Shown: piece by piece, positions 38,660 through 46,911 of the stretch
Layout: each line of letters opens with the position of its first letter
How positions within the stretch are numbered: position 1 is the first letter of the stretch
DNA from: Methanothermococcus okinawensis
Lineage (GTDB): Archaea; AGJL01; Methanococci; Methanococcales; Methanococcaceae
Assembly: GCA_015662355.1 (NCBI GenBank)
Contig: DQUI01000087.1
Location: forward strand, 1 to 47,837
Direction: 5' to 3'
DNA length: 47,837 bases
Translations under genes and position numbers: made by a program
Notes under the pieces: generated by a model
What the model was told of the DNA's origin: nothing
Seen by the model: the letters and a program-made list of their open reading frames with translations, nothing else
Databases searched by the model: none

Positions 38660-38668
38660 GGTGATAGG

Positions 38669-39220
38669 ATAAAGCTAGCTATCACCGGGACCCCTGGAGT
38701 GGGAAAATCCACTATCTCCAAACATTTGAAGGATAAATTGACAAAGAGGGGCATCTCCCTTGAATATATAGATCTTACAGAGGTTGTAAAGAGAGAAAAA
38801 CTCTACATAGAGAAGGATGAACACATGGACTCCTACGTAGTAGACTTTCCAAAACTTAGAGAGTATTTAAAAGATGTTAAAGGGGATGTTGTCATCCTAG
38901 ATGGTCATATAAGCCATCTCCTAGATGTGGATTATATAGTGGTACTTCGATGCAACCCTCAACTAGTTAAGGAGAGATTAAAAAAACGAGGTTATTCTAA
39001 GGAGAAGATTAAGGAGAACGTAGGGGCTGAGATACTAGATGTCTCCTTAATAGAGTCCCTGGAGAGGTTGAAAAACGAGAACATCCCTGTATACGAAATA
39101 GATACTACTAACAGATGTGTAGAGGAGGTTGTAGAGGAGATTATAGAGAATATGAAGAATAAAAAAGTGAGGTATGGGGTAGTGGACTGGCTAGAGGATT
39201 TCATATCTATGATAGACTAG
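38669..39220 (+). CDS. AK6/Fap7-type adenylate kinase, apparent ATA start codon
   Basis: This is a P-loop nucleoside monophosphate kinase of the AK6 (hCINAP/Fap7) family, linked to small-subunit ribosome maturation. The ORF track starts at GTG 38699, which would cut the P-loop: the frame upstream encodes KLAITGTPGVGKSTISKHL. Between the in-frame stop of the previous gene (TGA 38657-38659) and the P-loop there is no ATG, GTG or TTG. GGTGAT (38660-38665) is followed by AGG-ATA-AAG-CTA, so ATA 38669 is the best start (183 residues). VILDGHISHLL and LRCNPQLVKERLKKRGYSKEKIKEN match the family. It converges on leuB by 4 bp. Confidence 0.85.
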   Translation: MKLAITGTPGVGKSTISKHLKDKLTKRGISLEYIDLTEVVKREKLYIEKDEHMDSYVVDFPKLREYLKDVKGDVVILDGHISHLLDVDYIVVLRCNPQLVKERLKKRGYSKEKIKENVGAEILDVSLIESLERLKNENIPVYEIDTTNRCVEEVVEEIIENMKNKKVRYGVVDWLEDFISMID

Positions 39221-44098: not shown

Positions 44099-45237
44099 TC
44101 CACTGCAAAAAATAGACACTTTAAATACTCTAAATTTTTATTGGCCATGGAGATCACATGATCTGGGGATTGGGTCCTATAACCTCCAATTTGTTTAATC
44201 TCCCTTTTAGCCCTTAGAGAGGCAGATACTACAGTACTCTTAAAGGTCTCCCTGTCTATGTGATGGGAACAGGAGCATGTAACTAACATCCTTCTACTAA
44301 GTTGGAGCCCTAGATAGTTAAGGGTGTTGTAGGCCCTTAGAGCATTTTTTACATCCTCTGAGGTTCTTGTGAAAGATGGGGGATCTAGTATTACTACGTC
44401 GAAGAACTCCCCCTCCTCTATAAGATCCCTCATCACGTCAAAGGCGTTCCCATGTATAAGGTGATAGTTATCTATGTTGTTTAATCTCATATTCTCCTCT
44501 GCAACCTCTAAGGCCCTCTTGGAAATATCCACTCCCCAGACCTCTGCACCTATCACCCCACAGTGTACAGAGAAGCCACCTGTATAGCAACATACATCTA
44601 ATACCCTATCCCCCTCTCTCACGTAATTCTCTATGTCTATCCTGTTGTCCCTCTGATCTAGGAAGAAACCTGTTTTGTGCCCCTTTACGTTTACCTTGAA
44701 TTTTCCCCTACCCTCCTCTATAACAGTTTCCACATTCCTCCTATCTCCAAATATTCTAGGTTTTATCCTATCTCCCTTCTTAGCACCTTGGACATATAAG
44801 GTGCTAATATCTCCAAGCTCCTCTACACATTCGAATATTACAGGGGCGAATCTCTCCATAACCTTGGAGGAGATCTGCATAGAACCTATGTTGTTGTATC
44901 TATCTAGCACTATACATGGTAGATAGTCGCCTTCAGCGTATATCATCCTGTAGGTGTTCTTGAAACCAAGGATCTTCTCCCTGTACTCTATAGCTTTTTT
45001 TATCCTCTTATAGAAGAAGTCTTTATCTATCTCTTCTCTCTCCAGAGTAAGTATCTTTAAAGTAGGGCTGCCCCTGTTGTAGATAGCCCTAGCTACAAAT
45101 CTCCCCCTGTAGTAGAGGTCCACTATCTCATCCCTTTCAGGTAGATCTTCCCTGTTCACTATCCCCTTAACATACACTATCCTGGAGAAGTTCTCTATAG
45201 ACTCATAGGCTCTCCTATCTATCTGAAGCTTTATAAT
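44095..45237 (-). CDS. RlmI-like (COG1092) PUA-methyltransferase, apparent ATT/ATA start
   Basis: This RNA m5C-type methyltransferase has an N-terminal PUA domain, a central region ending KGHKTGFFLDQRDNR, the SAM motif VLDVCCYTGGFSVHCGVIGAEVWGVDIS, catalytic VVILDPPSFTRT and a TCSCSHHIDRETF motif. The ORF track starts at GTG 45177, but the open frame upstream encodes IIKLQIDRRAYESIENFSRI, the missing first part of the PUA domain. There is no ATG, GTG or TTG between that and the in-frame stop of component A2. GGTGAT-AAC-ATT-ATA-AAG places the start at ATT 45237 or ATA 45234. The target RNA is not known. Confidence 0.8.
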   Translation of the reverse strand: MIKLQIDRRAYESIENFSRIVYVKGIVNREDLPERDEIVDLYYRGRFVARAIYNRGSPTLKILTLEREEIDKDFFYKRIKKAIEYREKILGFKNTYRMIYAEGDYLPCIVLDRYNNIGSMQISSKVMERFAPVIFECVEELGDISTLYVQGAKKGDRIKPRIFGDRRNVETVIEEGRGKFKVNVKGHKTGFFLDQRDNRIDIENYVREGDRVLDVCCYTGGFSVHCGVIGAEVWGVDISKRALEVAEENMRLNNIDNYHLIHGNAFDVMRDLIEEGEFFDVVILDPPSFTRTSEDVKNALRAYNTLNYLGLQLSRRMLVTCSCSHHIDRETFKSTVVSASLRAKREIKQIGGYRTQSPDHVISMANKNLEYLKCLFFAVD

Positions 45238-45249
45238 GTTATCACCTCT

Positions 45250-46911
45250 CTACTCTTTCTCCTCCCCTAGAAACCTTGAATTACTTATCTCTATAAACTT
45301 GTCACAGACAACCTCTGGATCTCCCTCCATCTCTATTTTCCCCCTGTCTATAAGTATTACTCTGTCGCTTATCTCCTTTATCAGAGGTATATGATGACTG
45401 ATCAGTACTACAGTGGTACTGTATCTGTCGTTTATCATCTTTAGATAATTTGCAACATTCCTCAAGGTTATAGGGTCTAAATCTCCAAAGGGTTCATCTA
45501 ATAGGAGGATCTTTGGTTTTGTTATCAGTTGTAGGGCAAGGGCTACTCTAACCTTCTCTCCACCACTTAACTCCTCAGCTCTCCTGTTCAGCACCTCCTC
45601 ATCTAAGTCCAACATTTTAAGTATCTCCACAGGGTTAAAATCCTCGTCAACAATAGCAGGGAATAGAGTATTTATAATATTGTAGGAGAGGCCTAACCTC
45701 TCAAGTTTACTCCTCCTCTCCTCCTCAGGGAGATCTATCAGCTGATAGATCCCATCTACAACCTTCGGGGATATACCTAGCTCCTGGGATTTTAATTTGG
45801 CAGCGGTAATAGCCCCCTCTCCCTTCACTCCAGCTCTGTACTTCAACATATCCCTAACTGTTAGATAGTGAGGTATAGAGAACTCCTGGTGTAGTATACC
45901 TATCTTCCTACGTAACTCTATTCTCTTCCATCCGTACTCACTTAGATCTACGCCGTCCACTATGATCTTCCCACTATCTGGAAGCTCAAGCCCTCCAAGG
46001 AGTCTTAAAAGTACAGATTTTCCAGCACCACTTGGCCCAATAATAGAGAGTATCTCCCCCTCTCTAACATGGAAGGAGATATTCCTCATGTTCAAGGTCT
46101 CCCCTCCCCTCACTACAAAGTATCTCTTAGATACATTCTTTACCTCGATTATAGCCCTATCCTTAGGTTTAGATCTTCTAATATAGGGAGGTGCCATCTC
46201 CTCCAGGAACTTCTCTATCACCTCCTCAGGTTTTCCATCTAGTATCACCTTCCCCTCCTCTAGAAGGATAGTCCTATTACATAGATATCTGTGTATCTCA
46301 GGGAGGTGGGAGGTAATAACTATAGGGATGTTTAACTCCCTGTTAATGTTCTTCAACACATCTAAGAGGATCTGCTTTGAGGCTGGACAGGCCATAGTTG
46401 CAGGCTCGTCTAAAAGTAATACTCCCTCACCTTTCTCGTATATCTTTGCTATCTGTCTAGCTAGTATTAGACGTTGCTTCTCCCCTCCACTTAACACGTT
46501 TGCAAGGACGTCCTTCTTATGTTCCAGCCCAACTAACCTCAATATCTCTAGAGCCTTTTTTTCATACTCCTCCCACTCCTCCTCCATAGGTAGGGATTCG
46601 TCACAGTTGTTCCTTACAGCGTATAACTTTCTTATGATGTTGTAGATTGCAGGCTCAGCCCACAGTGCAAAGTTCCTCTGAAGGTGTATAGCTGTAACCT
46701 CCCTGAAGTTATCCCTCCTACCAAGTATCTCAACGTACCCCTCATAGTCCCTATCGATCCCCCTAAGTATCCTTATAAGTGTAGACTTTCCAGCTCCAGA
46801 TTTCCCCACTACTCCCAGTATCTCCCCCTTCTCCACCTGGAAGGAGACGTTATCCAGGGCTATTTTATTGTTGTATCTCTTCCTAAGGTTTTTAACTACC
46901 ACTGCAGTCAT
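45250..46911 (-). CDS. atwA: Methyl-coenzyme M reductase activation component A2 (twin ABC ATPase)
   Basis: Component A2 is the ATP-binding protein needed to reductively activate methyl-coenzyme M reductase. Two ABC domains are fused in 553 residues. The first has Walker A VVGKSGAGKSTLIRIL, signature VLSGGEKQRLILARQ and Walker B VLLLDEPATMACPASKQ, the last being diagnostic of this family. The second has IGPSGAGKSVLLRLLGG, ELSGGEKVRVALALQL and KILLLDEPFGDLDP. No membrane segments are present. Start has GGTGATAGT. The RlmI-like gene follows in the same frame 12 bp after its stop. It should not be mistaken for the missing cobalt-transport ATPase. Confidence 0.93.
   Translation of the reverse strand: MTAVVVKNLRKRYNNKIALDNVSFQVEKGEILGVVGKSGAGKSTLIRILRGIDRDYEGYVEILGRRDNFREVTAIHLQRNFALWAEPAIYNIIRKLYAVRNNCDESLPMEEEWEEYEKKALEILRLVGLEHKKDVLANVLSGGEKQRLILARQIAKIYEKGEGVLLLDEPATMACPASKQILLDVLKNINRELNIPIVITSHLPEIHRYLCNRTILLEEGKVILDGKPEEVIEKFLEEMAPPYIRRSKPKDRAIIEVKNVSKRYFVVRGGETLNMRNISFHVREGEILSIIGPSGAGKSVLLRLLGGLELPDSGKIIVDGVDLSEYGWKRIELRRKIGILHQEFSIPHYLTVRDMLKYRAGVKGEGAITAAKLKSQELGISPKVVDGIYQLIDLPEEERRSKLERLGLSYNIINTLFPAIVDEDFNPVEILKMLDLDEEVLNRRAEELSGGEKVRVALALQLITKPKILLLDEPFGDLDPITLRNVANYLKMINDRYSTTVVLISHHIPLIKEISDRVILIDRGKIEMEGDPEVVCDKFIEISNSRFLGEEKE

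Follow-up and report, generated by a model that had tools for sequence, protein, structure and literature searches.

The window, that is, the whole 47,837-nt stretch of Methanothermococcus okinawensis DNA that was analysed, contains a gene for an RlmI/PH1915-like SAM methyltransferase, located downstream of a gene for a component A2-like ABC protein, and also a gene for a Fap7/AK6-type kinase (Table 1). The methyltransferase has an RlmI/PH1915-type architecture, comprising a PUA N-terminus and a SAM methyltransferase domain. Its score with the NCBIfam 23S C1962 model (23SC1962Mtase) is 225.7 bits, below the curated cutoff of 575, and the protein is accordingly named RlmI-like only.

Table 1. 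Genes and initiation features of the two loci in the window.
Feature	Position	Strand	Basis
Fap7/AK6-type kinase (NCBIfam PRK03839), 183 aa	38669..39220	+	Profile match; PDB 4cvn and hCINAP relatives
Putative ATA start codon of the Fap7/AK6-like kinase	38669..38671	+	GGTGATAGG-ATA; ATA/ATT in 21 Methanococcaceae, ATG in 8 Methanocaldococcaceae
Shine-Dalgarno sequence GGTGAT of the kinase	38660..38665	+	
RlmI/PH1915-like SAM methyltransferase with N-terminal PUA domain, 380 aa	44095..45237	-	Pfam PF10672 and PF17785; PDB 2as0, E = 2.8e-101
ATT, most likely initiation codon of the methyltransferase	45235..45237	-	Shine-Dalgarno spacing 3; register of PH1915 Met1; ATT/ATA/TTG/ATG at the homologous site in relatives
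ATA, second and less likely candidate start of the methyltransferase (spacing 6)	45232..45234	-	Spacing 6 rare among canonical starts
Shine-Dalgarno sequence GGTGAT of the methyltransferase	45241..45246	-	8-nt match GAGGTGAT to the 16S 3' end GGATCACCTCC; kept in relatives despite differing flanks
A at -3 of the methyltransferase ATT	45240..45240	-	A at -3 in most ATH candidates of G005 and G000
Methyl-CoM reductase component A2-like ABC protein, upstream gene	45250..46911	-	TAG 12 nt before ATT; same frame as the methyltransferase here

Read along the minus strand, the junction of the two adjacent genes consists of TAG (45252-45250), AGA, GGTGAT (45246-45241), AAC, ATT (45237-45235), ATA (45234-45232) and AAG CTT CAG ATA GAT. 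The first ATG, GTG or TTG in the methyltransferase frame is GTG 45177, at residue 21, and the PUA N-terminus lying upstream of it is coding. According to a Pfam search, the PUA_3 domain match begins at residue 5, and residue 4 of PH1915 (PDB 2as0) is paired in the alignment with residue 4 of the methyltransferase; thus, ATT sits at the position of Met1. The Shine-Dalgarno (SD) sequence preceding ATT 45237 is a perfect GGTGAT at a spacing of 3 nt, which is the modal spacing in the genome. The initial annotation had described the methyltransferase as a gene without a canonical start, and its coordinates, its SD sequence and the conserved coding N-terminus all agree with that description. The absence of a usable canonical start is supported at the level of sequence, with ATT favoured over ATA as the probable initiation codon.

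The homologous site was compared among related genomes, six of which (G001, G002, G003, G006, G008 and G010) are public Methanothermococcus records; the family and genus labels of the others are those that we presume. GGTGAT-N3-ATT is kept in five genomes beyond that of the window, one of them complete, ATA is found in two, and the outgroups have TTG or ATG. In the same-genus comparison, GGTGATAAC-ATT is present in G000, G001 and the complete genome G005, and GGTGATAAC-ATA in G006 and G010; GGTGATAAT-ATT, continued by TCA or CCA, occurs in G002, G004 and G008. TTG occupies the homologous site in G009, G011 and several Methanocaldococcaceae, and ATG does so in other outgroups. Among the same-genus genomes, the N-terminus and the SD sequence are conserved and the sequence farther upstream is wholly different. 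Conservation at the protein level covers the 20 residues ahead of the GTG and reaches down to the outgroups, where ATG or TTG precedes them; the alignment of homologues that had been proposed as a check therefore finds the PUA N-terminus present in relatives.

The kinase is the second case in the window. The first canonical codon of its gene, a GTG at residue 11, lies inside the P-loop, GTPGVGKST, which extends from residue 7. In pattern searches of 41 genomes, the kinase start of the 21 readable Methanococcaceae was ATA (14 genomes) or ATT (7 genomes), and that of 8 Methanocaldococcaceae was ATG. In G017 and G021, the ATA of the kinase gene is followed by an ATG one codon farther on, and these cases are ambiguous. 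The base at -3 is A in all 21 orthologues with ATH (ATA, ATT or ATC) and T in all 8 with ATG.

A census of such starts covered the whole of G005 (complete, 1,504,113 bp) and, in part, G000 (0.63 Mb). In G005, the SD match had to be 6 nt or longer, with spacing 3, and a canonical alternative had to be lacking for ATH; the background ATH frequency was 0.10, and a looser scan with 5-nt SD matches was too noisy. At spacing 3, there were 251 canonical first codons, 13 ATH and 5 other codons in G005, compared with 23 ATH among 178 at the other spacings tested, which is near background (binomial p ~7e-10 for the excess at spacing 3; Fisher p ~1.6e-7 against the other spacings). The corresponding figures for the 0.63 Mb of G000 were 121 canonical, 8 ATH and 9 other. 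When 664 orthologous pairs from these two genomes were scanned for genes lacking a canonical codon and having a GGTG-type SD sequence at spacing 3 in both, four matches were obtained, all of them ATH/ATH: the RlmI-like methyltransferase, the kinase, a RimK-like ligase and PurO. The ATH genes have a strong SD sequence at the normal spacing (mean match 6.9 nt), no usable ATG, GTG or TTG at a conserved N-terminus and, for RlmI, the kinase, TPI and PurO, conservation in relatives, as is the case for infC-type genes starting with AUU, AUA or AUC. About 12 genes of G005, or ~1%, thus appear to qualify as ATH-started. The genome-wide scan, which the initial annotation had named as a check, brought further cases to light, and its claim that non-canonical starts recur is borne out in both the genome and the family by the census, the kinase, TPI and PurO.

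The ATH sites share a further feature, A at -3, with the accepted weak starts, and this feature played no part in finding them. In G005, A is present at -3 in 12/13 ATH, 33/38 GTG and 29/31 TTG starts and in 100/184 ATG starts (Fisher tests against ATG: p ~0.008 for ATH and ~6e-8 for GTG and TTG together). In G000, the counts are 7/8 for ATH and 45/84 for ATG, and the 'other' codons at spacing 3 have T at -3 in 7 of 9 instances. In G005 and the part of G000 that was covered, A at -3 occurs in ~90% of GTG/TTG starts vs ~54% of ATG starts, resembling a Kozak-like rule for weak starts.

The candidates in G005 are genes for agmatinase, a RimK-like ligase, TPI, the RlmI-like protein, a glycosyltransferase, MTAP, a nitrogenase beta-like subunit, a lipoprotein (with a typical signal peptide and an I-K-K-L start), a radical-SAM-like protein, the Fap7/AK6 kinase, PurO, a membrane-like protein and one doubtful case; some of them are known from one genome only. 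TPI begins with ATT, ATC or ATA in 15 Methanococcaceae, with ATG in the g4 genus and with ATG or TTG in Methanocaldococcaceae; the TPI gene of G013 has an additional GTG four codons downstream of the ATH. PurO, whose family profile match extends from position 1, begins with ATC, ATT or ATA in six genomes of one subclade. MTAP has ATA in G005 only, and ATG, GTG or TTG in the other genomes. On the tree of the methyltransferase, which is drawn from one gene and lacks some genomes, a single switch between NTG and ATH suffices for each of kinase, TPI and RlmI, all other changes being swaps within ATH or within NTG; after the change of class, ATT, ATC and ATA are exchanged without a return to NTG.

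Several other loci were noted. The nitrogenase beta (vnfK/nifK/nifN-like) subunit gene at G005:351986-353386 (minus strand, locus L068) has GGTGGGAAT-ATT at its start. A membrane-like protein gene at G000 C21:1-990 (minus strand, locus L150) has GGTGATATT-ATT with no canonical codon for 14 codons and runs off the contig. At G000 C1:23660-23929 (plus strand, L128/L129), GGTGATACC-TTA-AGG stands ahead of an N-terminus, LRFVQIVKIAVIVLLTLP, that is hydrophobic and resembles a signal sequence; 10 codons pass without a canonical start, and UUA is a possible start in this one genome. A RIO2-like kinase gene (G000 C52:6548-7456, minus strand; G005 around 1066012) has GGAGGTGTAAAC-ATA in G000 and was removed from the core list, since in relatives a GTG precedes this place in frame by one or two codons; that GTG may have been lost in G000, with ATA serving in its stead. 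The ATA matches at 554619 in G005 and on C60 in G000 are probably false, having a GTG start near, without A at -3.

The arrangement of the window genes had been taken as a sign of coupled re-initiation, whereby ribosomes ending the A2 gene would restart on a nearby near-cognate codon and the coupling would make ATT usable. The A2 stop does lie 12 nt upstream and in frame, and the kinase start follows an in-frame TGA by 9 nt, so that a shared frame and a stop within 12 nt hold for both window genes, but these are not general features. In G001 and G005, the A2 gene ends ~0.4-0.7 kb away, with GGTGATAACATT unchanged and the same ATT and SD sequence in place, and at L007/L008 A2 ends in a different frame from the methyltransferase; some relatives thus share the start without having an upstream stop nearby. 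Nor are ATH starts in G005 clearly nearer to upstream genes than ATG starts: an upstream gene ends no more than 30 nt away in 6/13 and 73/197 cases, respectively, and for 6 of the 13 ATH genes the 300 nt upstream contain no gene end on the same strand. Coupling is, therefore, a very unlikely explanation of the ATT start.

The initial annotation had left the choice between ATT and ATA open. ATA 45234 is also near-cognate and adjoins ATT, but it would require a spacing of 6, represented by 15 canonical starts in G005 as against 251 at the modal spacing of 3; it is ATT that is in register with the TTG or ATG of relatives and with Met1 of PH1915, and in G006 and G010 ATT ATA has become ATA GTA. 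These comparisons leave ATA only a small chance of being the start. Initiation at GTG 45177, with the upstream frame a conserved accident, is the solution that gene finders limited to ATG, GTG and TTG would choose; it is scarcely credible given that the preceding 20 residues are conserved and form part of the PUA domain and of PH1915, and that the next canonical codon in G005 is 38 codons into the gene. The same logic of a downstream canonical start would split the P-loop of the kinase and cost TPI its NYK motif. An assembly or sequencing error turning ATG or TTG into ATT might be imagined in a fragmented genome of 90 contigs, but the same pattern appears in independent assemblies, including the single-contig G005, and the kinase and TPI patterns recur in many complete genomes; the probability of such an error is practically negligible.

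Very probably, then, the methyltransferase is translated from ATT 45237 by the ordinary Met-tRNAi and belongs to a class of ~1% of Methanococcaceae genes having AUU, AUA or AUC starts. The initiator tRNA of G005 is ordinary (A1-U72, a GGG/CCC anticodon stem and a CAU anticodon), and its 16S end, GGATCACCTCCTT, has a normal anti-SD; an altered initiator tRNA or anti-SD is thus ruled out in that genome. In the simplest and most likely mechanism, a strong SD sequence (GGUGRU), exactly 3-4 nt upstream, would position the 30S subunit, A at -3 would help initiation at AUH, and the CAU anticodon of Met-tRNAi would pair with the first two codon bases, a mismatch at the third being tolerated, so that the protein would begin with Met. 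From the sequences, we infer initiation at AUH, methionine as the first residue, an efficiency below that of AUG and selection for low expression, possibly regulated. In Sulfolobus, aIF1 is reported to discriminate against non-canonical starts (PMC6237735), and the efficiency of AUH is, therefore, probably low.

That AUA and AUU have been retained across the family, with exchanges within AUH but without reversion to AUG, points to selection in favour of a weak start. The RlmI-like and AK6/Fap7-like proteins may, judging by homology only, act in ribosome making, which gives rise to the idea of an infC-like feedback, but the other members are metabolic. In a speculative form that we consider rather unlikely, the AUH genes would be fixed in Methanococcaceae as a regulatory class, the SD sequence and A at -3 (read by aIF2alpha) licensing weak starts that answer to initiation fidelity; for the kinase and the methylase, there would be a loop in which immature or low-fidelity 30S subunits raise their own maturation factors. 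Against the main reading, translation from ATT as part of an AUH-started class, it counts that the RlmI-like gene itself begins with TTG or ATG in some members of the family. In the searchable literature, subscription journals excepted, no paper was found that treats AUH starts in archaea as a class, and the family-wide archaeal class appears to be undescribed; in individual database entries, curated extension may already have placed Met at AUH sites. Gene finders restricted to ATG, GTG and TTG would shorten or miss AUH proteins, TPI losing its NYK motif.

In bacteria, infC of E. coli starts at AUU. In S. aureus, infC, cvfC1, ccpN and citZ have AUU or AUA starts with strong SD sequences and lowered initiation (PMC13009471). 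The archaeal genes are similar in having AUU or AUA behind a strong or extended SD sequence, conserved among relatives. They differ in the archaeal aIF1/aIF2 setting, in their number (about a dozen per genome), in the use of AUC, in the A at -3 signature and in their family-wide occurrence; their products in Methanococcaceae are mostly metabolic, none being an initiation factor. The GTG and TTG starts of the same genomes share the SD sequence, the spacing and the strong preference for A at -3, but their mismatch with CAU is at the first base instead of the third, and, unlike them, ATH is barred by common gene finders. Eukaryotes have near-cognate starts in a strong Kozak context with A or G at -3, ascribed to contact with eIF2alpha; by analogy, aIF2alpha might contact the base at -3 in archaea. 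The A at -3 rule would tie near-cognate starts of archaea to a contact of the Kozak kind, and it is testable in Methanococcus, a genus open to genetic manipulation. The two systems have in common a weak codon combined with a purine at -3, and archaea possess aIF2, but here the start is placed by Shine-Dalgarno pairing and not by scanning.
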